Origin: Cyclobacteriaceae bacterium
GTDB lineage: Bacteria; Bacteroidota; Bacteroidia; Cytophagales; Cyclobacteriaceae
Assembly: GCA_020436085.1 (NCBI GenBank)
Contig: JAGQYM010000020.1
Location: forward strand, 1 to 64,000
Reading direction: 5' to 3'
DNA length: 64,000 nucleotides
A program made the translations under genes and the position numbers. This document shows positions 4,447 to 63,856 of the stretch, piece after piece. Numbering within the stretch: the first letter of the stretch is position 1; each line of letters starts with the position of its first letter. The notes under the pieces were generated by a model. The model searched no databases, was not told where the DNA came from, and was given only the letters and a program-made list of their open reading frames with translations.

Positions 4447-5220
4447 ATGATGAAAAAGAAATTCAAACTCAACATACGTACAGAAGCCAAGATCGTCACA
4501 GCACTGGTTGGGATCTTTTTCCTGATAGCATTCAGCGAACGCAAACAGTCGGGCGTGGTTTGTAAAAATATTGTAGTTGAATTAGAGAATACACGGGAGA
4601 ATCACTTTATCGATGAAGCAGACATACTTCAGATTATTGAGAGCAGCGGTGAAACGATGATCGGAAAAAGTATAGACCGGATCAACCTTCGATCACTCGA
4701 GAAAAGACTTGAAGGAGATAAGCACATCTCAAAAGCAGAAATATTCGGAGACGTAAAAGGCAACGTAACCGTAAACGTCAAGTTAAGACGGCCCATCGCG
4801 AGACTAATCAGAGACAATGGACCCGATGCCTACATCGCGGAAGATGGAAAAGTGATGAGAACATCAGAAAAATACTCATCAAGAATACTGCTGATCACCG
4901 GAAGAAAAGCAGCTGATTTGATCGAACAAGGAGATATCCTTAAGTCAGACTTCGGTGTGCAGATAATGGACATGATTGAATTTATTCAAGACGATATTTT
5001 TTGGAAAGCACAGGTGGCCCAACTCGACATTAACGAAGGCGGTAAAATATTCATATACCCACAGGTTACAGGTCAGCTGGTTGAGTTTGGTAAACCAGAG
5101 AATATTGAAACGAAGTTTAGGAAGCTGATGATCTTTTATAAAGAGATCCTGCCTCAGCGAGGATGGACCAAATACGAACGCGTGAATGTTGAATACGAAG
5201 GACAGGTAATAGCAGAATAG
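4447..5220 (+). CDS. ftsQ: FtsQ-like cell division protein
   Basis: Single-pass division protein of 257 residues: short basic cytoplasmic tail, one membrane helix (about residues 15-30), then a periplasmic region whose first part (IVVELENTRENHFIDEADI to about residue 115) looks like a POTRA domain. In other bacteria FtsQ/DivIB links FtsB and FtsL to the divisome. Sequence conservation in this family is poor, so the name rests mainly on size, topology and position between murC and ftsA. It starts 4 bp after murC. Confidence 0.85.
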   Translation: MMKKKFKLNIRTEAKIVTALVGIFFLIAFSERKQSGVVCKNIVVELENTRENHFIDEADILQIIESSGETMIGKSIDRINLRSLEKRLEGDKHISKAEIFGDVKGNVTVNVKLRRPIARLIRDNGPDAYIAEDGKVMRTSEKYSSRILLITGRKAADLIEQGDILKSDFGVQIMDMIEFIQDDIFWKAQVAQLDINEGGKIFIYPQVTGQLVEFGKPENIETKFRKLMIFYKEILPQRGWTKYERVNVEYEGQVIAE

Positions 5221-5224
5221 TTAA

Positions 5225-5316
5225 TAGTCTATAGTCCATAGTCGATAGACTTATGGATTGTAGGCTTAAGAATACATGTACTAAAGACTAAAGACTAAGG
5301 ACTAAAAACTAAAAAA
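5225..5316. repeat. Dyad-symmetric heptad repeat array in the ftsQ-ftsA spacer
   Basis: The left arm (5225-5252) is 7-bp units TAGTCTA, TAGTCCA, TAGTCGA, TAGACTT. The right arm (5281-5315) is CTAAAGA, CTAAAGA, CTAAGGA, CTAAAAA, CTAAAAA. Read in register, the right arm is NNGACTA repeated and the left arm is its reverse complement TAGTCNN, so the arms can pair as an imperfect hairpin across a 28-bp centre. The array fills most of the 124-bp gap. No coding potential was seen. Confidence 0.8.
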
Positions 5317-5344
5317 GCACAACCACTAATAACGATTTACAACC

Positions 5345-6643
5345 ATGGAACATGAAAAAATAGTAGTAGGACTAGACATAGGCACCACAAAAATTTGTGC
5401 CATAGTCGGTCGCAAAAATGCCTACGGAAAGCTCGAAGTATTGGGCATGGGCAAGGCGGAGTCCGAAGGCGTAATCAAAGGCATTGTCACCAACATCGAC
5501 AAGACCGTATTCGCCATTGAAAAAGCGATAAAGGAAGCCAGCGATATGTCAGGCATCGACATCGGTATTGTCAATGTAGGAATTGCCGGTCAGCACATAC
5601 GCAGCTCAATTCATCACGGAAGCATTACACGCAACTCCAAAGATGATGAGATCAGCATCGAAGATGTGAACAGACTTACAGAAGATATGTATCGCATCGT
5701 CATTCCCCCCGGAAGCGAGATCATCCATGTGATGCCACAAGATTACATGGTCGACTACGAAGAAGGAATTAAAGATCCCGTAGGGATGTCGGGTGTAAAG
5801 CTCGAAGCAGACTTCCACATCATCACCGCACAAACCAGCGCAATCAATAATATCAATAAGTGTGTGCGCAGAGGAGGACTGGAAATAGAAGATCTCATCC
5901 TTGAGCCACTCGCGTCAAGTCTCGCAGTGTTGAGCGAAGAAGAGAAAGAAGCCGGAGTTTGCCTGATCGATATAGGTGGAGGTACTACCGATGTAGCAAT
6001 CTTCTATGACAACATCATCAGGCATACAGCAGTAATTCCATTCGGAGGAAATATACTCACCACGGACATCCAGCATGGACTCATGGTGATGGCCAAGCAG
6101 GCCGAGCAACTGAAGACACGCTTTGGAAAAGCAATTGCAGAAGAAGCAAGTCCAAACGAAATCGTGTCAATCCCGGGTATTCGCAACAGAACAGCCAAAG
6201 AGATATCCGTTAAAAACCTGTCCAACATCATTCAGGCCCGTATGGAAGAGATCATCGAAATGGCACACACCGAAATACTGGCTTCAGGTTTTGAGAACAG
6301 GTTGGCTGGAGGCATTGTAATCACCGGAGGCGGATCGCAACTCAGTTGCCTGAAACAGCTGGTGGAATACATGACGGGAATGGACGCGCGTATCGGCTAT
6401 CCCAATGAACATCTTGGCAAGAGCAAGATGGAAGTAGTAAAGAGTCCAATGTATGCCACAGCCGTGGGCTTGGTGTTGTCAGGCTTCCGTTCGTTGGACG
6501 AACGCGAGGAACGCTACAAAGAGGCACGTACTGTGAAAGTTGGCAAGACGAAAAAAGTAACGTCATCAGATTTCTTTACCAACATCCTCAATAAAACAAA
6601 AGGATTGTTGATCGATGATCTGGATGGCAAGAATGAATACTAA
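5345..6643 (+). CDS. ftsA: Cell division protein FtsA
   Basis: Actin-like ATPase that tethers FtsZ filaments to the inner membrane. The 432-residue product begins with the phosphate-1 motif GLDIGTTKICAIVG, followed by the SHS2/1C region; phosphate-2 is CLIDIGGGTTDVAIF and the adenosine motif is GGIVITGGGSQL. The tail around FFTNILNKTKGLLIDDL is a candidate membrane-binding amphipathic helix. It is separated from ftsQ by the heptad repeat spacer and lies 29 bp before ftsZ. Confidence 0.97.
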   Translation: MEHEKIVVGLDIGTTKICAIVGRKNAYGKLEVLGMGKAESEGVIKGIVTNIDKTVFAIEKAIKEASDMSGIDIGIVNVGIAGQHIRSSIHHGSITRNSKDDEISIEDVNRLTEDMYRIVIPPGSEIIHVMPQDYMVDYEEGIKDPVGMSGVKLEADFHIITAQTSAINNINKCVRRGGLEIEDLILEPLASSLAVLSEEEKEAGVCLIDIGGGTTDVAIFYDNIIRHTAVIPFGGNILTTDIQHGLMVMAKQAEQLKTRFGKAIAEEASPNEIVSIPGIRNRTAKEISVKNLSNIIQARMEEIIEMAHTEILASGFENRLAGGIVITGGGSQLSCLKQLVEYMTGMDARIGYPNEHLGKSKMEVVKSPMYATAVGLVLSGFRSLDEREERYKEARTVKVGKTKKVTSSDFFTNILNKTKGLLIDDLDGKNEY

Positions 6644-6672
6644 AAAGAATTAACCACTAAACAATTATCATC

Positions 6673-8322
6673 ATGTCTGGAATAGCTTACAAATTCGAGC
6701 TCCCCAAACATCACCAGTCGATCATCAAGGTGATTGGAGTGGGTGGCGGAGGAAGTAATGCGGTCAACCACATGTTCGCACAAGGCATCAAAGATGTCGA
6801 GTTCGTTGTGTGCAACACCGACTTACAGGCGCTCAACAGCAGCCCCATTCCTTATAAACTACAAATCGGGGCCAACCTCACGGAAGGTCTCGGGTGCGGT
6901 GCAAATCCCGAAGTGGGTCGCGCGGCTGCATTGGAAAGCAAAGATCAAATCCGGGAAATGCTCACAGGCACCAAGATGGTGTTCGTGACAGCCGGAATGG
7001 GCGGAGGCACGGGAACGGGTGCAGCTCCTGTGTTGGCAAAAATCGCCAAGGACATGGACATCCTCACAGTAGGTATTGTGACTGTGCCGTTCATGTTCGA
7101 AGGGAAAAAGAAATTAGCCGCAGCACAACTAGGCATTGAAGCTCTTCGTGCAAGTTGCGACACCGTGCTGGTTATCCTCAACGATAAACTCAGAGAAATC
7201 TACGGAAACCTGTCCATCGGACAAGCATTTGCCCAAGCCGACAATGTACTGACCACTGCAGCCAAAGGAATCGCAGAGATCATTACACTCGCAGGTTATG
7301 TGAATGTCGACTTCCAGGACGTGCGCACCGTAATGCACAATGCCGGTGCAGCCGTAATGGGATCGGCAGAAACACGCGGAGAAAACCGCGCATTGCTCGC
7401 AGCACAACAGGCCCTCGCCTCACCGCTGCTTGACAACCGCGACATCATGGGAGCGAAGCGCATACTGCTCTCCATCATTTCAGGTGAAGAAGCAGAATTG
7501 CAGATGGACGAGCTTTCAGAAATCACAGAATACATCCAGCAGCAGGCAGGTGACGAAGCCGAAGTCATCTTCGGTCACGGTGTCGATTCGACCATCGGAG
7601 ATCGTATCAGAGTTACAGTCATCGCCACAGACTTCGATGCAGAAGCACAGTCAGCGATGGAAGAAAAGAAAAAGGTTCATGACCTCGACAGGACACAGCA
7701 CAACCTGTTTATCCAAATCGACAACTCAGTAAACGAAGGCGAAAAAGAGCCCGAACTGAAAGTTGCTGATAAAGACAAGCCAGTGCTCTCGACCCCCAAC
7801 AAGATCGAAGAGCCAAAAGAGCAGCCTGTAAAACAGGTAGAAAAGAAAGAGGCAAAGGAGGACAAGGAAGAAAAAGAGGAGAGGAGTTATACGTTCACCT
7901 TGTTCGAGAAGAAAGAGGAACCTGTGCAAAGCAAGACACTCTTTGATGAAGTGGAAGATGAGGTAGAGGATGAAGGAGAAGAAAGTTTGTTTGCAGAGGC
8001 TGAAGAAGATGAGTTCGACATAGAAAGTGAAGTTTCATCGGATCAGGTACTAAATGAAGAAGGAATGATGGAATATCGCAAGACCAAAGAGAGACTTCAG
8101 CAGCAGGCCAGGGACAGAAGAGAGAAATTGAAAAGCAATAAGAAGCAGGAGATGACCAAAGAAGAGTTCAACGAAAAGTGGTCATTACCGGCTTATTTGA
8201 GGAGAGGCGTAAAAATGAACAATGTGCCTCACTCTTCGGAGCCCTATATCTCCAGGTACAACTTGAACGATGATAACAGTTTACTGGGTAATAATAAGTT
8301 TTTACATGACAATGTAGATTAA
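6673..8322 (+). CDS. ftsZ: Cell division protein FtsZ with extended C-terminus
   Basis: Tubulin-like GTPase forming the Z ring. The GTP signature GGGTGTG is at residues 110-116 and the T7 loop NVDFQDV at 211-217. At 549 residues it is much longer than the usual 350-450: after the globular core (to about 320) comes a highly charged Glu/Lys-rich linker of about 180 residues. The conserved C-terminal peptide appears as LPAYLRR (505-511) but is not terminal; 38 more residues follow, ending in NNKFLHDNVD. Partner-binding peptides are normally at the very end of FtsZ, so the tail is notable. Confidence 0.97.
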   Translation: MSGIAYKFELPKHHQSIIKVIGVGGGGSNAVNHMFAQGIKDVEFVVCNTDLQALNSSPIPYKLQIGANLTEGLGCGANPEVGRAAALESKDQIREMLTGTKMVFVTAGMGGGTGTGAAPVLAKIAKDMDILTVGIVTVPFMFEGKKKLAAAQLGIEALRASCDTVLVILNDKLREIYGNLSIGQAFAQADNVLTTAAKGIAEIITLAGYVNVDFQDVRTVMHNAGAAVMGSAETRGENRALLAAQQALASPLLDNRDIMGAKRILLSIISGEEAELQMDELSEITEYIQQQAGDEAEVIFGHGVDSTIGDRIRVTVIATDFDAEAQSAMEEKKKVHDLDRTQHNLFIQIDNSVNEGEKEPELKVADKDKPVLSTPNKIEEPKEQPVKQVEKKEAKEDKEEKEERSYTFTLFEKKEEPVQSKTLFDEVEDEVEDEGEESLFAEAEEDEFDIESEVSSDQVLNEEGMMEYRKTKERLQQQARDRREKLKSNKKQEMTKEEFNEKWSLPAYLRRGVKMNNVPHSSEPYISRYNLNDDNSLLGNNKFLHDNVD

Positions 8323-8323
8323 A

Positions 8324-8407
8324 CTGGATACATGATACTGGACGCTGGACAGTGGCGACTCGACCAGACACGAGACCAGCATCAAGCGACAAGTATCAAG
8401 GATCCAG
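8324..8407. repeat. Second dyad-symmetric heptad repeat array, downstream of ftsZ
   Basis: Starting two bases after the ftsZ stop, the sequence reads in 7-bp units: CTGGATA, CATGATA, CTGGACG, CTGGACA, GTGGCGA, then after a centre CATCAAG, CGACAAG, TATCAAG, GATCCAG. The second arm is close to the reverse complement of the first, with 21 of 28 positions matching over four paired units by hand. It has the same architecture as the array at 5225-5316 but a different unit sequence. Confidence 0.75.
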
Positions 8408-8416
8408 CAAAGAGAT

Positions 8417-8496
8417 GGCATTCCCGGCACGACAGGTTTTTACTCCATTCGTAGTGGTTGTTGGTTGTAAATATTTTTTGCCGGTGCCGGGATGCC
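8417..8496. repeat. Long-armed inverted repeat downstream of ftsZ
   Basis: GGCATTCCCGGCAC at 8417-8430 is mirrored by GTGCCGGGATGCC at 8484-8496, a 13-bp pairing with one bulged base and a 53-nt loop. TTTTT follows the right arm. It could be a structured 3' end of the ftsZ transcript, or a small RNA. The loop contains no gene-like sequence. Confidence 0.6.
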
Positions 8497-8508
8497 TTTT
8501 TATGTAAA

Positions 8509-8538
8509 GTCTGGTTGGTAGCCAGACGCGATTTTTTT
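8509..8538 (+). terminator. Candidate intrinsic terminator after ftsZ
   Basis: GTCTGG (8509-8514) pairs with CCAGAC (8522-8527) around a 7-nt loop, and a run of seven T follows at 8532-8538. It is oriented to end the dcw transcript. Confidence 0.65.
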
Positions 8539-8540
8539 CG

Positions 8541-8579
8541 AAACCCCGGTCTCTCGAATGGCCGGGGTTTTGTTTTTTT
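8541..8579 (+). terminator. Second intrinsic terminator after ftsZ
   Basis: AAACCCCGG (8541-8549) pairs with CCGGGGTTT (8562-8570), a 9-bp stem with a 12-nt loop, followed by TGTTTTTTT. It is the strongest terminator in this spacer and probably isolates the next gene from the division cluster. Confidence 0.8.
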
Positions 8580-8661
8580 AGGTGTTACCCACAAAATACC
8601 AGCAGTCGCCAACGATCAACGGCCAACCCTCCCTATCTTTATATCTAAGACTCTAAACAAA

Positions 8662-9666
8662 ATGATCTCCAAACGCTTCATCCTCATCACCTTTCCCATC
8701 CTCCTTCTGCTAGGTGTCTACTTCCTGGGACCGGAACCTGCTACACCAAAATTCGCTCCAACGATGCCCCTGGTGCCAAATGAACCAGATAAATTAGAGA
8801 GTTATATCAATGCCAATGAAGCACGGCATAACGTGAAGCCTGATAACGAGGCACGTATCATCTGGTTTGACAGTGCCAGAAGCAAAACTGAATACAGTGT
8901 TATTTATCTTCACGGCTTCTCCGCCAGTCAGGAAGAGGGAGATCCAATCCACACCGATTTTGCCAAACGTTATGGTTGCAACCTTTATCTCGCACGATTG
9001 GCTGATCATGGAATTGACACCACGGAACAACTTCTATATTTCACTCCGGACCGATTGTGGGAGAGTGCAAAGGAGGCACTTGCCATCGGAAAGGCCATCG
9101 GTGATAAGGTCATCGTCATGAGTACCTCTACGGGGGGCACGGTGGCCCTCATGCTGGCAGCCCAATATCCCGATGATGTGTATGCTCTTATTAATATGTC
9201 TCCCAATATCGCCATCAACAATCCAACGGCTTTTCTTCTCAATGATCCCTGGGGATTGCAGATCGCCCGCATGGTGATCGGTAGTGACTATCAGGTGATC
9301 GACTATCCACCTGCGCGCCAACAGTATTGGAATGGCAAATACAGATTGGAGTCGCTCACACAACTTGAGGAGTTGCTGGAGGTGAAAATGAATAAAGAAA
9401 CCTTTCAACAAGTAACGGAACCTTCACTCACACTCTATTATTATCAAGATGAGGAGCATCAAGACCCCACTGTGAAAGTCTCAGCTATGCTCACAATGAA
9501 CGAACAGTTGGGTACCGATCCATCAAAGAAACGTGCCATTGCTATTCCTGGGGCAGGGGCGCATGTTATTGGATCTCATCTCGTGTCTAAAGATTTGGAA
9601 GCAGTCACCAACGCAGCAAACCAATTTGCAGAAGAGGTGTTGGGTCTCACTCCAGTCGATAACTAA
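8662..9666 (+). CDS. Membrane-anchored or exported alpha/beta hydrolase
   Basis: A 334-residue alpha/beta-hydrolase fold protein of unknown substrate. Residues 5-22 form a signal anchor or signal peptide. The oxyanion-side HG motif is at 84-85 and the nucleophile elbow is STSTGG (154-159) with predicted Ser156; the usual first Gly of GxSxG is Ser here. A likely acid lies in QDEEHQDPTV and the catalytic His in GAGAHVIGSH. The frame is open back to 8458, but that extension runs through the ftsZ terminators, so the ATG at 8662, which begins the signal sequence, is chosen. Confidence 0.8.
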   Translation: MISKRFILITFPILLLLGVYFLGPEPATPKFAPTMPLVPNEPDKLESYINANEARHNVKPDNEARIIWFDSARSKTEYSVIYLHGFSASQEEGDPIHTDFAKRYGCNLYLARLADHGIDTTEQLLYFTPDRLWESAKEALAIGKAIGDKVIVMSTSTGGTVALMLAAQYPDDVYALINMSPNIAINNPTAFLLNDPWGLQIARMVIGSDYQVIDYPPARQQYWNGKYRLESLTQLEELLEVKMNKETFQQVTEPSLTLYYYQDEEHQDPTVKVSAMLTMNEQLGTDPSKKRAIAIPGAGAHVIGSHLVSKDLEAVTNAANQFAEEVLGLTPVDN

Positions 9667-58556: not shown

Positions 58557-60812
58557 ATGAAATTCACTGTTCCACTTGCCATGGTGTTTGGAGTTCTAAT
58601 AGCCGGATGCTCCAATGATTCAACAAAAAAAGACAACAGAGTAGACCAATTGCTAAGCCAAATGACTCTCGAAGAAAAAGTGGGTCAACTTAATCAGTAC
58701 GCGGTTGGACCAGAGTTGACCGGGCCGGGAGAAAAGACAGGACAGACAAAAATTCGCTACGATCAACTGATGAGTGGACAGGTAGGCTCGGTGTTGAATG
58801 TACTCGGTGCAAAAAATGGACGTGAGATGCAGCAGCAGGTAGTTGAAAATACAAGACTGGGCATTCCTCTCGTCTTCGGCTACGATGTCATTCATGGATA
58901 CAAAACAATATTCCCTATTCCACTTGGTGAAAGTTCCTCGTGGGATTTGGGTCTGATGGAGGCGACCGCCAGAGTAGCGGCAGTTGAAACATCGGCTGCC
59001 GGAGTACAGTGGACGTTTGCGCCTATGATGGATGTAGGTCGCGACCCGAGATGGGGAAGAGTGATGGAAGGAGCGGGTGAAGATACGTACCTCGGTGCAG
59101 AAATTGCAAAAGCAAGAGTCAAAGGATTTCAGGGTGGTGATCTTTCTTCTACAAATACTATTGCAGCCTGTGCAAAGCACTTTGCTGGCTATGGATTTTC
59201 AGAATCCGGAAAAGATTACAACAACGTATACATCGGGCAGCATATGTTACTTAATACGGTGATACCTCCTTTCAAAGCGTCTGCCGAAGTTGGTGTAGCC
59301 ACATTTATGAATTCCTTCAATGATATTGACGGCATTCCGTCAACCGCCAACCCTTATCTGCTTCGCGATCTTTTGAAAGGTGATTGGAAATATGATGGAA
59401 TGGTAGTGTCAGATTGGAACTCAGTTGGAGAATTAATTCCACACGGGGTGGCCAGAAGCAAATATGAAGCTGCAAGAATGGCGATTAATGCTGGCTCCGA
59501 CATGGACATGGAAGGGGCTGCTTTCGTGGAGAACTTAAAACAACTAGTGGAAAAAGGAGAGGTGAGCATGAATGTGCTAGATGACGCTGTGAGACGTGTA
59601 TTGACGCTGAAACAAAGACTTGGTTTGCTGGACGATCCTTACAAATATTTCGATGAAGCCAGAGAGGCGGAGCAAATGATGAAAAAAGAACACCTTGACC
59701 TTGCCAGGGATGCCGCCCGCAAATCAATCGTGTTGTTAAAGAACGAAGGAAACCTTTTGCCGCTCAAAGCGAATCGAATTGCTGTTATCGGACCTCTTGC
59801 TAAAGACAAGGATACACCTATCGGCAACTGGCGTGCGGCTGCAGAACCTAATTCAGCAGTTTCACTATTCGAAGGCCTGACTGAAGGAATGCCGGATGTA
59901 AACTTCAGCTACGCAGAGGGATGCAAACTCTCAATTGGTCCCAACAACTTTGTCAATGAGTTACAAATTGAAAATAGCGATCGGTCAGGATTTGCAGAGG
60001 CCATTAGAGTGGCGCGTGGTGCTGAAGTTGTGATTATGAATTTGGGAGAACCAGCTTACATGTCAGGCGAGGCGCGAAGCAGGTCAGATATTGGACTTCC
60101 TGGATTGCAATTGGAACTACTTAAGGAAATTTACAAAGTAAATAAGAACATCGTGTTGGTGATGATGAACGGACGCCCATTGACGATCGAATGGGAAGCA
60201 GAAAATATTCCAGCGATAGTAGAAGCATGGCACCTTGGAAGTATGGCAGGACACGCGATTGCGGATGTCTTGTCAGGCAGGTACAATCCATCGGGAAAAC
60301 TGACGATGAGTTTCCCCAGATCGGTTGGACAAATTCCAGTTTACTATAATCACAAGATGTCGGGTCGACCCTCTACCGGACCAAATATGGTTTTCTACAC
60401 ACATCATATGGACGTTGACAGAGGTCCACGTTATCCATTTGGTTATGGATTGAGTTATTCAACCTTTTCATATTCACCAGTTGTGTTAAGCGATTCGGTA
60501 AAGGCAAATGGTAAGTCTATTACTGCCAAGGTCACAGTAACGAACAATAGTGCTGTTGATGGCGAAGAAGTTGTACAACTATACATCCGCGATGTGGTAG
60601 GAAGTATTACCCGGCCTGTGATGGAGCTAAAAGGATTTCAGAAAACCATGATTAGTGCAGGTGAGAGTAAAGAATTTACTTTTGAGATCACAGACGAGTT
60701 ACTCTCTTTTTATCGATTGGATTTCAGTTTCGGAACTGAGCCAGGTGACTTTGAAGTCTTTGTTGGCTCAAGCTCAGCGAATCTTCAGTCGGCAAGGTTT
60801 ACTTTGAAATGA
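58557..60812 (+). CDS. bglX: Secreted glycoside hydrolase family 3 beta-glucosidase
   Basis: A 751-residue GH3 enzyme, probably hydrolysing beta-glucosides in the periplasm or at the surface. It starts as a lipoprotein (LIAGC, Cys18). The TIM-barrel domain has MTLEEKVGQLNQYAVG, GYDVIHGYKTIFPIPLG, KHFAGYG and the nucleophile Asp in GMVVSDWNSVGEL; the alpha/beta sandwich domain has KSIVLLKNEGNLLPL and LGEPAYMSGEARSR; a fibronectin-like C-terminus follows. The gene symbol is by best likeness. Confidence 0.92.
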   Translation: MKFTVPLAMVFGVLIAGCSNDSTKKDNRVDQLLSQMTLEEKVGQLNQYAVGPELTGPGEKTGQTKIRYDQLMSGQVGSVLNVLGAKNGREMQQQVVENTRLGIPLVFGYDVIHGYKTIFPIPLGESSSWDLGLMEATARVAAVETSAAGVQWTFAPMMDVGRDPRWGRVMEGAGEDTYLGAEIAKARVKGFQGGDLSSTNTIAACAKHFAGYGFSESGKDYNNVYIGQHMLLNTVIPPFKASAEVGVATFMNSFNDIDGIPSTANPYLLRDLLKGDWKYDGMVVSDWNSVGELIPHGVARSKYEAARMAINAGSDMDMEGAAFVENLKQLVEKGEVSMNVLDDAVRRVLTLKQRLGLLDDPYKYFDEAREAEQMMKKEHLDLARDAARKSIVLLKNEGNLLPLKANRIAVIGPLAKDKDTPIGNWRAAAEPNSAVSLFEGLTEGMPDVNFSYAEGCKLSIGPNNFVNELQIENSDRSGFAEAIRVARGAEVVIMNLGEPAYMSGEARSRSDIGLPGLQLELLKEIYKVNKNIVLVMMNGRPLTIEWEAENIPAIVEAWHLGSMAGHAIADVLSGRYNPSGKLTMSFPRSVGQIPVYYNHKMSGRPSTGPNMVFYTHHMDVDRGPRYPFGYGLSYSTFSYSPVVLSDSVKANGKSITAKVTVTNNSAVDGEEVVQLYIRDVVGSITRPVMELKGFQKTMISAGESKEFTFEITDELLSFYRLDFSFGTEPGDFEVFVGSSSANLQSARFTLK

Positions 60813-60849
60813 TCTCGTCCGTTTTTTTTTGGATCGAGCAAATGCATTT

Positions 60850-61686
60850 ATGAAATGGATCACCCGTGAGAAACCAAAAATTGATCGAATCGCATGTCCA
60901 TGGTTGATCAAGAGATTTATTGATATGGACGCAGAATTTTATTTCGTTCCCTACGATAAGGTCATCTCTCAATCTAAGAAACTTGAGGCGATACCATTTG
61001 ATATTATCGGTGTAGAATACTCACACCATGGTGATGAATGTACGTTTGATTATTTCTTAAAGAAGCACCTGCTTCAAGATCCCGCTTTGAAAATATTGGC
61101 TACTATCGTGCGGGCAGCTGACACTGACCGCCATGATCTGGCGACTCAGGCATCTGGACTGTGGGCTATCTCCGCTGGATTGGCCTACAACATCAAGGAT
61201 GATCATGAGTTACTTCGGCAAGGGATGATCATCTATGACGGGCTCTATAGTTGGTCGCGATATCTTCAAAAGGAAAGGCATACTCAAAATCCAATTGAAG
61301 GAATGTTTCTGGATGTTTATAAAAAGTTTCTTAAAAGGAGAAAAGGTAAGGAGCCCTCCTGGGCAAAGGAACTGCGTGAAATTATACAAGACCAAATCGA
61401 CACCAACCTCACGCTCAGTTTAGCTGAAGTTTCGAAAACGTTAGATGTACACCCTAGTTACCTGTCGCGCGAATTTTCTAAATACTTTGACGACTTGACG
61501 TTTGGTGACTATATTAGGAAACTTCGGATTGAAAAAGCTATCAAGCTAATGTCGAATCCATCTCATTCGTTATCCGAGATCGCTTACCTTACGGGTTTCT
61601 CCGATCAGAGCCACTTCAACAGAATTTTCAAGAAGATAATGGGAAAGAATCCATCTCATTACAGGAAAACGTTGCTGAAAAAGTAA
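60850..61686 (+). CDS. ChrB domain fused to AraC-type DNA-binding domain
   Basis: A 278-residue protein of unusual build. Residues 1-138 are a ChrB C-terminal (chromate resistance) domain: MKWITREKPKIDRIACPWLI, then GVEYSHHGDECTFDYFL, ATIVRAADTDRHDL and GMIIYDGLYSWS. A linker follows, and residues about 172-275 are an AraC family double helix-turn-helix (LTLSLAEVSKTLDVHPSYLS, ...SLSEIAYLTGFSDQSHFNRI). Classic ChrB carries a different, N-terminal winged helix. The likely role is control of the chrA gene 65 bp downstream. The ATG at 60850 is chosen over TTG at 60829. Confidence 0.88.
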   Translation: MKWITREKPKIDRIACPWLIKRFIDMDAEFYFVPYDKVISQSKKLEAIPFDIIGVEYSHHGDECTFDYFLKKHLLQDPALKILATIVRAADTDRHDLATQASGLWAISAGLAYNIKDDHELLRQGMIIYDGLYSWSRYLQKERHTQNPIEGMFLDVYKKFLKRRKGKEPSWAKELREIIQDQIDTNLTLSLAEVSKTLDVHPSYLSREFSKYFDDLTFGDYIRKLRIEKAIKLMSNPSHSLSEIAYLTGFSDQSHFNRIFKKIMGKNPSHYRKTLLKK

Positions 61687-61751
61687 AGCAGGTTCAAATC
61701 GTAAAATCTATTCTATTAATCCGCAAAGTGAGGTGATAGCTTGGTTGCTTC

Positions 61752-62870
61752 ATGTATTCTTTGTGGCAACTAACTTTCTATTTTCTCAAGCTGGGCACAT
61801 TGGGTTTCGGTGGACCTGTCGCGTTGGTTGAGTATATGCATCGCGATCTGGTGGTTGGGAAAAAATGGATTGCCGAAGAGGACTATCGCGAAGGACTAGC
61901 CCTAGCACAGCTTGCGCCTGGTCCGCTTGCAGCACAGTTGGCGATTTACCTTGGCTTTGTCCATCATGGGATTGTGGGAGCAACGCTCACAGGCGTCACT
62001 TTTTGTTTGCCCTCTTTTCTTATGGTTGTCATTCTGGGGGCAGTCTACGTTGCGTTCGATGGATTGCCTTGGATGCAAGCCGTATTTTATGGCGTTGGCG
62101 CTTCCGTCATCGGAATAATCACACTGAGTAGCTACAAGCTTTCAGTGAAGAACAATTCAAAGGACGTTTGGCTCTGGGTCATCTTTTTTGTGCTTGCAAT
62201 CACCACGTTCATACTCGAAAAGGAGAGCATTATCCTTATCCTAGCCGGAGGGGTTTTGATTTGGGTAGTTCGCAATAAGAAAGTTTCCTCATCCTTTACT
62301 ATTTTGTCTCCATTCCTTGCTCAGATACCCGCGATTGAATTTTCCACACTCACTCAAATTGCCATTTTTTTTGGAACAGCAGGGGCTTTTGTTTTTGGAA
62401 GTGGACTTGCAATCGTTCCATTCCTATATGGAGGTGTAGTGACACAGTACGGCTGGCTCAATGAACAGCAGTTCATTGACGCAGTTGCAGTGGCGATGAT
62501 CACCCCTGGGCCAGTGGTAATTACGGTTGGATTTATCGGATATCTCGTGGCGGGATTTCCCGGAGCCTGTGTAGCAGCGTTAGCAACGTTTCTTCCATGT
62601 TATCTTTTTACAATTATCCCTGCGCCCTATTTCAAAAAGTATGGCAAAAATCCAGGCATAAAAACATTCGTGGATGGTATAACAGCCGCTGCTGTAGGTG
62701 CGATAGCGGGTGCGGTGTTAGTGATGGGGAAGCGAACACTCCTGGATGTTCCATCAATGTTGATCGCCATCGCTACACTGCTTATGCTTATTCGATTTAA
62801 AAAAATAAAAGAGCCGTTAGTTATCCTGATTGCGGCTCTGGTGGGTTTGATTATTAAATTTTTCATATGA
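61752..62870 (+). CDS. chrA: Chromate efflux transporter ChrA
   Basis: A 372-residue inner-membrane protein of the CHR family, which expels chromate. It has two homologous halves: the first with LGTLGFGGPVALVEYMHRDL and LAQLAPGPLAAQLAIYLGF, the second with FVFGSGLAIVPFLYGGVV and AVAMITPGPVVITVGFIGYL. Around ten to twelve helices are predicted. The stop overlaps the next gene by 4 bp, and the ChrB-AraC gene precedes it on the same strand. Confidence 0.93.
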   Translation: MYSLWQLTFYFLKLGTLGFGGPVALVEYMHRDLVVGKKWIAEEDYREGLALAQLAPGPLAAQLAIYLGFVHHGIVGATLTGVTFCLPSFLMVVILGAVYVAFDGLPWMQAVFYGVGASVIGIITLSSYKLSVKNNSKDVWLWVIFFVLAITTFILEKESIILILAGGVLIWVVRNKKVSSSFTILSPFLAQIPAIEFSTLTQIAIFFGTAGAFVFGSGLAIVPFLYGGVVTQYGWLNEQQFIDAVAVAMITPGPVVITVGFIGYLVAGFPGACVAALATFLPCYLFTIIPAPYFKKYGKNPGIKTFVDGITAAAVGAIAGAVLVMGKRTLLDVPSMLIAIATLLMLIRFKKIKEPLVILIAALVGLIIKFFI

Positions 62871-63856
62871 GCACTGACACAATAATTCTTACACGATCAC
62901 AAGTCGCCTCCTTGCTTCACCATGAAGAATGCATTGCAGCAGTTGAAGAAATGTTTCGATTGCATGGTGAAGGAAAGACACAAGAGCCGAGCATACTTGG
63001 TGTGCATGCGGTTACCGGAGGTTTCCATATCAAAGCGGGAGTGATGGATTTGAGTAAATCATACTTCGTGGCGAAAATGAACGCCAACTTTCCAGGAAAC
63101 CCAAAGCAATTTAGCCTGCCCACTATCCAGGGAGTTGTGATTGTTTGCGATGCCGCCAATGGCAGATTGTTGGCGCTCACAGACTCAATCGAAATTACTA
63201 TTCAACGAACAGGAGCGGCAACGGCTGTAGCGGCAAAATATCTTGCAAAAAAATCAAGTGAGAAACTGGCGGTGATCGGCTGTGGTAATCAGGGAAGAGT
63301 GTCGATGGAGATGTTATCATCTATTTTTTCTTTTAAAGAGATTCGGTTATTCGATACGGAGCCTATCAATGCACAAAAATTGCAGACCGAAGCGTCATTA
63401 GTTTTAAAGAATGTTGGAGTTTGTGCCACCGTACAGGAGGCGGTGAAAGAGGCAGATATCATTATTACTTGCACACCATCCAGGAAACCCTTTCTTACTC
63501 GTGACATGGTTTCTCCTGGTGCCTTTATTGCAGCAGTGGGAGCTGACAATGAGGAGAAACAGGAGTTAGACGAAGCGCTGGTCTTCGAATCAAAACTCGT
63601 TGCGGATATTACCGCTCAATGTGCCACTATAGGAGAATTGCATCATGCCCTTGAGAGAGGCCTTGTAACACGCGAACATGTTTATGCCCAGTTGGGAGAA
63701 GTTGTGTCAGGGAGAAAAGAGGGCCGAACCTCGGAGGAGGAAATTATCATTTTTGATAGCACTGGAATGGCATTGCAAGATGTGGCATCTGCAGTCATTG
63801 TATATGAGAAAGCGATAACAAGGAATAACTCCCTTTCGCTGGATTTCATGGCGTAG
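62867..63856 (+). CDS. Ornithine cyclodeaminase/mu-crystallin family protein
   Basis: A 329-residue NAD(P)-binding protein of the OCD/mu-crystallin family, whose members act as ornithine cyclodeaminase, alanine dehydrogenase or ketimine reductase. Visible parts are EECIAAVEEMFRLHGEG, RTGAATAVAAKYLAKKSS and the Rossmann loop VIGCGNQGR, with DIIITCTPSRKPFL and SPGAFIAAVGADN. The specific reaction is unknown. The ATG overlaps the chrA stop, so it is translated with chrA. Confidence 0.88.
   Translation: MSTDTIILTRSQVASLLHHEECIAAVEEMFRLHGEGKTQEPSILGVHAVTGGFHIKAGVMDLSKSYFVAKMNANFPGNPKQFSLPTIQGVVIVCDAANGRLLALTDSIEITIQRTGAATAVAAKYLAKKSSEKLAVIGCGNQGRVSMEMLSSIFSFKEIRLFDTEPINAQKLQTEASLVLKNVGVCATVQEAVKEADIIITCTPSRKPFLTRDMVSPGAFIAAVGADNEEKQELDEALVFESKLVADITAQCATIGELHHALERGLVTREHVYAQLGEVVSGRKEGRTSEEEIIIFDSTGMALQDVASAVIVYEKAITRNNSLSLDFMA

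Follow-up and report, generated by a model that had tools for sequence, protein, structure and literature searches.

A gene on the forward strand of the 64-kb window (by which we mean the whole 64,000-nt stretch of Cyclobacteriaceae DNA analysed here) encodes a regulator in which a ChrF-type ChrB_C domain is joined to a C-terminal AraC DNA-binding domain (60850..61686, stop codon included; 278 residues). The fusion is conserved in Bacteroidota, and a conserved DNA site with a promoter box at a fixed spacing lies before chr genes, both beside the fusion gene and at unlinked loci. We regard it as a new domain arrangement among chromate regulators, not as a system of a new kind. The chromate regulators described to date belong, to our knowledge, to the ChrB type, and our literature search of open-licence papers found no published description of the fusion regulator. 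The predicted operator and promoter type is the strongest new result, being supported by held-out fusions and by unlinked cases. We see an even chance that these genes represent an undescribed class of Bacteroidota chr regulators, in which a domain of ChrF lineage, known only as a reported Mn-SOD, would have been co-opted to provide an AraC activator with its sensor. On this view, the activator would control a scattered chr regulon (chrA, chrF, DUF1259, DUF2490, SOD neighbours and, at some loci, exporters of the RND or MacB-like kind), acting through a single conserved promoter type that depends on it. The fusion family would then be a second solution to chromate regulation, one that uses the promoter architecture of Bacteroidota. 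It also bears on whether the ChrB_C/ChrF domain acts as sensor, enzyme or both, and on the signal that governs the numerous CHR transporters of this phylum.

An intact fusion protein and its distribution

A Pfam search of the 278-residue protein places ChrB_C (PF09828), the presumed sensor, at residues 3-135 (60856..61254, forward strand; E 8.5e-51, 172.2 bits against a cut-off of 25) and an AraC-type double helix-turn-helix at residues 195-273 (61432..61668, forward strand; HTH_18, PF12833, E 3.9e-21), with HTH_AraC (PF00165) matching in two stretches. The sequence-only reading had proposed a ChrB domain within residues 1-138 and an AraC double helix-turn-helix at the C-terminus, and both the significance of the ChrB match and the order of the domains agree with that proposal. 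The N-terminal DNA-binding half of the classical ChrB type is absent, ChrB_C beginning at residue 3 with no other N-terminal Pfam match. Solved structures of SoxS, MarA, Rob and AraC align with residues 172-278 in a profile search, in which none of the matched structures reaches the N-terminal domain; sequence search found no solved structure for the ChrB_C domain. The fusion therefore has its double helix-turn-helix in common with these AraC/XylS activators, but its effector domain is ChrB_C and not a cupin. Structure prediction, also suggested beforehand, was of partial use. The AlphaFold model is confident for residues 1-140 (pLDDT 88-97 as ten-residue block means) and poor for residues 141-220 (block means 49-59), and with an overall pTM of 0.53 it is therefore uninformative on the arrangement of the domains.

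The reading frame is uninterrupted from ATG to TAA, and we place the start at ATG 60850 rather than TTG 60829 because the alignment of most relatives begins at residue 1. The same full-length fusion is found in 75 of the 80 genome loci listed (82 stretches matched) and on two plasmids, and these 77 loci form the full-length set; the others are a copy ending at a contig edge (L062, residues 16-271), one in two frames (L076), one truncated (L077), a stand-alone ChrB_C (L078) and a short AraC-like match (L080). Residues W171 and P169 in the linker between the two domains are also conserved in relatives. A frameshift between the halves, the weak point foreseen by the sequence-only reading, is thus excluded by the relatives, which share a single open frame, conserved linker included; the fusion is one intact protein, and the probability that it is an artefact of annotation or assembly is close to nil. 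Across 78 fusions, the segments SREFSK (206-211, within YLSREFSK) and TGFSDQSHF (248-256), likely DNA-contacting stretches, retain at least 95% identity, and this high conservation leads one to expect a shared DNA site.

All 75 full-length genome loci among the matches listed belong to Bacteroidota, mostly to Chitinophagaceae (23) and Sphingobacteriaceae (17), although other phyla are still possible because the genome-contig scan detects close relatives only. Of 1267 plasmid records matching by tblastn, only 3 cover at least 80% of the query, two of them from Pedobacter and Spirosoma; 54 phage records match, none with such coverage. The genome that contains the window (4.4 Mb, 98.93% complete) has a single ChrB_C match. 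In an evenly drawn sample of 395 genomes from the phylum, 18 have ChrB_C and 107 a CHR-family match, and the 18 comprise the window's own genome, 14 others with an intact fusion, one without fusion (G200) and two with broken copies (G387, G300).

Lineage and conserved residues of the N-terminal domain

In a tree of 81 rows, which includes 40 of the 78 fusions and six classical ChrB proteins, the fusions cluster with ChrF and the stand-alone copies, while a branch of 2.93 (support 100/99) sets apart the six ChrB domains together with the odd sequence L107. A single set (100/99) unites the stand-alone copies of Bacteroidota with proteobacterial ChrF. The tree is compatible with a single origin of the fusion and also with several. 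On this phylogeny, the N-terminal domain of the fusion belongs with ChrF, that is, with stand-alone ChrB_C, and not with the C-terminal domain of classical ChrB. The idea of a domain swap, in which ChrB had simply been re-ordered, has to be given up on account of this grouping. Residues 1-148 are about 55-57% identical to proteobacterial stand-alone copies, and K10, C16, E56, R88, D91-T92 and H144 are common to the fusion and ChrF. We know of no sensing function for ChrF. The O. tritici protein has been reported as a dimeric cytoplasmic Mn-SOD, purified with 1.0 Mn per monomer (PMC4779226); it is of the same ChrB_C lineage as the fusion, but ChrF proteins stand alone at about 150 residues and have no DNA-binding domain.

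Comparison with the mutational work on O. tritici ChrB used the operon of a Comamonas plasmid (L085) as numbering reference. This operon agrees with the published TnOtChr at 34/34 positions of the promoter repeat and at 14/14 mutated or discussed ChrB positions with an offset of 0 (both primers were also compared), so that the published numbering can be used. R6 (60865..60867), R13 (60886..60888) and H59 (61024..61026), all encoded on the forward strand, align with ChrB R180, R187 and H229, respectively. Each is identical in 78/78 fusions and, in the same alignment, in 25/25 stand-alone copies of Bacteroidota, 3/3 ChrF and 2/2 ChrB sequences. Alanine mutants at these three positions of O. tritici ChrB are described as having lost chromate induction (PMC3817168). 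A structural or catalytic role may also explain the three residues, however, because they are equally conserved in ChrF. ChrB H258, the loss of which is reported to give high expression without chromate (PMC3817168), corresponds to R88 in 78/78 fusions, and C213 is not kept in the fusions; both differences speak against simply equating the domain with that of ChrB.

As described for O. tritici (PMC3817168), ChrB of TnOtChr is likewise a chromate-operon regulator with ChrB_C beside chrA, and the equivalents of R180, R187 and H229 are retained in the fusion. In classical ChrB, however, the DNA-binding part is N-terminal and ChrB_C is C-terminal, whereas the AraC domain of the fusion is C-terminal, and the two ChrB_C lineages lie far apart in the tree. 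The ChrB-Nterm and ChrB-Cterm genes of Arthrobacter FB24, as presented in PMC2751784, provide another case in which ChrB_C has been freed from the classical architecture within a chromate determinant, but in that case each ChrB half has a gene of its own, and neither is described as joined to an AraC domain.

A conserved candidate operator and its promoter geometry

The candidate operator of the window lies directly after the regulator gene (61693..61722, forward strand; GTAA at 61701-61704, CTAT at 61713-61716) and, at 24.2 bits, is the top match on both strands of the 64-kb window, the runner-up reaching 12.7 bits. Dyads 3' of the regulator gene revealed TTCTATTT in 36 of 71 non-redundant loci versus 0-3 in three shuffles, and GTAA-N8-CTAT in 21 of the 71 versus 0-1 in shuffles. 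A first EM run on downstream regions was discarded because it had moved onto the coding sequence of chrA and chrF. The site model that we used is 30 bp wide, was fitted on 62 regions restricted to the gene end, and has the consensus TaCAAAa.GTaAAtt.cgTtCTATTT. Neither direct nor inverted symmetry is clear in this model, in keeping with an AraC domain, and the site lies over the -33 position. This asymmetric site, predicted after the regulator gene, differs from the operator region of ChrB, described as an imperfect inverted repeat before chrB (PMC3817168). The model exceeds 8 bits in 76 of 78 regions and 12 bits in 73, and the best site of the whole locus on both strands is found directly 3' of the fusion in 71 of 77 loci. 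Elsewhere in the loci there are 19 further matches above 12 bits, nine of which precede chr genes (chrF in L018, L021, L023 and L031; chrA in L025 and L028; DUF1259 in L038; the c2 family in L053 and L054); the remaining ten score 12.1-16.8 bits, and a shuffled window reached 15.0.

A -7-like promoter box, TAGCTTGG (61737..61744, forward strand), is positioned exactly 24 nt after CTAT in the window and has 5/6 consensus bases. This spacing is a property of the family: among 76 sites, 34 have TAnn[AT]TTG starting exactly 24 nt beyond CTAT, no other single distance accounts for more than 1, and column-shuffled tails gave at most 5 boxes in any 3-nt window. When distances of 23-25 were allowed and ties assigned to 24, the best -7 match fell at 24 nt for 67 of the 73 sites, matching at least 5 of the 6 consensus bases in 49. 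With the T at -12, as in the F. johnsoniae numbering scheme that we adopt from PMC6847099, CTATTT occupies -36 to -31, the position of the -33 element, and the whole site extends from about -56 to -31. At -10, the third position of the box, 38 of 67 cases have G, a base described as nearly absent there from F. johnsoniae promoters (PMC6847099). For the window, this places the predicted chrA start near 61749, so that only some 3 nt separate it from the ATG of chrA. The actual start of chrA transcription or translation may differ from this prediction because such a leader is short for the phylum, the same source giving leaders of more than 10 nt in 87% of transcripts (PMC6847099).

Held-out sequences provide independent tests of the model. 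Of 18 further regions, 14 contain intact fusions outside the model fitting, L097 (a repeat of the fitted L055), L107 (a non-fusion of 138 residues, 40% identical) and the broken L109 and L110 having been dropped. The site is found directly after the gene in 12 of these 14, at 21.6-32.9 bits. The two genomes without an adjacent site (G025, G122) have it before unlinked chrA-like genes, or before a c2 gene leading to one (L152, L153, L154; the c2 label in L153 and L155 was assigned by eye). The chrA-like gene behind an exact operator in G025 (L152, 1520-2709) reads as two overlapping frames, so that the gene may be disrupted here or its sequence may contain an error. For the two fitted loci that lack an adjacent site (L052, L057), the site is found elsewhere in the genome, in front of a chrA that is 88% identical to a plasmid chrA and of a c2 gene, or else in front of a DUF2490-like gene. 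A second site precedes a distant chrA in G206, and a site precedes a c2-like gene in G249.

A scan of the 395 genomes for mismatch-free site plus box returned 10 sites in 7 genomes, and the reversed pattern returned none. These seven are exactly the ChrB_C carriers among the 23 genomes of genus g14; one (G021) repeats a fitted locus. The 16 g14 genomes without ChrB_C have no site, although a CHR-family match is present in 8 of them. By hand calculation, the chance of this coincidence is one in C(23,7) = 245,157, a figure that treats as independent g14 relatives that are not fully so. The mismatch-free pattern fits g14 only: outside this genus it gives 0 sites, and it misses the window's own site, which has 1 mismatch. 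When 2 mismatches were allowed, 161 of 395 genomes matched, but the reversed controls gave about as many hits, and we do not use that scan as evidence.

Taken as a prediction from these comparisons, the identification of the conserved site as the DNA site of the regulator is strongly supported. In many loci the site begins within the last regulator codons, as it would if the conserved DNA were simply the 3' coding end of the regulator gene or a signal for transcription or translation such as a terminator or leader structure. We regard this explanation as very improbable, however, given that the site also precedes chr genes far from regulators, in reading frames that bear no relation to the regulator gene (L151-L155, L161, L162, L165), and that its distance to the promoter box is fixed. 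Of the two DNA stretches that the sequence-only reading had named as possible targets, 61687-61751 contains the candidate operator, whereas 60813-60849 gained no support, dyads 5' of the regulator gene being no more frequent than in shuffles among 71 non-redundant relatives. Its broader suggestion, that chr genes are controlled through a different class of promoter recognition, is supported by the AraC part of the protein and by the conserved candidate operator before chr genes.

We do not claim an upstream operator, as the EM sites there are spread out and rich in A, with Chitinophaga relatives supplying the best ones at width 22. The log-likelihood for 70 non-redundant upstream regions did exceed that of four shuffles at all four widths (108.2 versus 79.6-96.4 at width 22, for example), in a comparison where the shuffles had fewer seeds than the real regions. 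A TAnnTTTG box within 60 bp 5' of the regulator gene occurs in 17 of 78 cases versus 2.9 expected, so that part of the family is likely to have its own regulator promoter; the window has only a 5/6 match, located by eye at 60799-60806.

Neighbouring genes, proposed mechanism and alternatives

The gene following the regulator, the presumed target (61752..62870, forward strand), is a CHR-family transporter gene, chrA (PF02417, 2.1e-80; TIGR00937, 1.9e-118), which bears out the position upstream of chrA assigned by the sequence-only reading. Its stop is overlapped by 4 nt by a gene of the ornithine cyclodeaminase (OCD)/mu-crystallin family, presumably on the same transcript (62867..63856, forward strand; PF02423, 2.7e-77). 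Among the 77 full-length loci, chrA lies 3' of the fusion on the same strand in 61 (two being fragments or cut by the contig) and is not found nearby in 16; a stand-alone ChrF gene is 3' of the fusion in 24, and an OCD gene in five (L006, L015, L026, L046, L067). With the window included, the OCD/mu-crystallin family is thus a recurrent member of chr clusters in Bacteroidota; we know of no role for such an enzyme in chromate resistance. Other recurrent neighbours are DUF1259 (c3), DUF2490 (c8), Fe/Mn SOD (c7), the c2 family, and TolC with RND (c4, c5).

We think it probable that the fusion is a one-component regulator whose N-terminal ChrF-type ChrB_C domain would sense chromate or a closely related signal and whose AraC domain would bind the asymmetric site of about 27 bp. 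CTATTT would take the place of the -33 element, with the -7-like box exactly 24 nt downstream, and a weak chr promoter would depend on the bound regulator, as in class-II activation. Weakness and dependence on the regulator are suggested by the frequent G at -10, rare as it is in ordinary F. johnsoniae promoters. Activation would drive chrA and the overlapping OCD-family gene in the window and, in relatives, chrA, stand-alone chrF, DUF1259 or DUF2490 proteins and others, sometimes at unlinked loci. Chromate is the likely ligand, judging from gene context and the three conserved residues, and the ChrF ancestry leaves room for a redox or superoxide signal.

The same protein might instead be a repressor that occupies the -33 region and leaves on signal, as classical ChrB is thought to do. 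Overlap of the site with the core promoter would suit such a role, as would the behaviour of classical ChrB as a repressor and the constitutive phenotype reported for O. tritici ChrB when R18 or R23 is mutated (PMC3817168). The promoters, however, have no clear -33 element beyond the site itself, and the G at -10 in 38 of 67 boxes suggests that they are weak at basal level. One-component regulators of the AraC family, moreover, are mostly activators, and on balance we find repression distinctly unlikely. Rather doubtful, but deserving more weight, is the idea that the signal is superoxide, redox state, Mn or another oxyanion, and that the ChrF domain is a sensor derived from an enzyme. The lineage of the domain points this way, together with the Mn content and SOD activity reported for O. 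tritici ChrF (PMC4779226) and the fact that, at some loci, genes for RND or MacB-like exporters follow in place of chrA. Yet chrA is the downstream gene in most of the full-length loci, the three residues needed for the chromate response of ChrB are invariant, and the SOD claim, as far as the cited account extends, comes from the reports of a single laboratory.

The exporter loci themselves are of two kinds. In L040 and L066 (both 4846-8834) the predicted operator precedes TolC/RND efflux genes with no chrA in the locus, so that the predicted regulon may include other exporters; in L032 (4859-7333) and L033 (4859-7341) it precedes a gene for a MacB/FtsX-type permease instead of chr genes. Both kinds suggest that the regulator may respond to more than chromate.

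The predicted operator is precise enough for immediate testing, and a defined sensor-operator pair that works in Bacteroidota would serve as a chromate reporter part.

In the window's own genome, the consensus pattern is matched exactly once, and once more with 3 mismatches. Contig C114 carries a second CHR-family transporter gene (L158), which is without the operator (9.6 bits), and a further site of 19.9 bits on C44 (L112, near 57615, minus strand) has no -7-like box at the usual distance. The c2 family (for example L053, 5117-5647), with proteins of about 170 residues and no Pfam match, recurs behind the predicted operator and accounts for 24 loci in the clustering.
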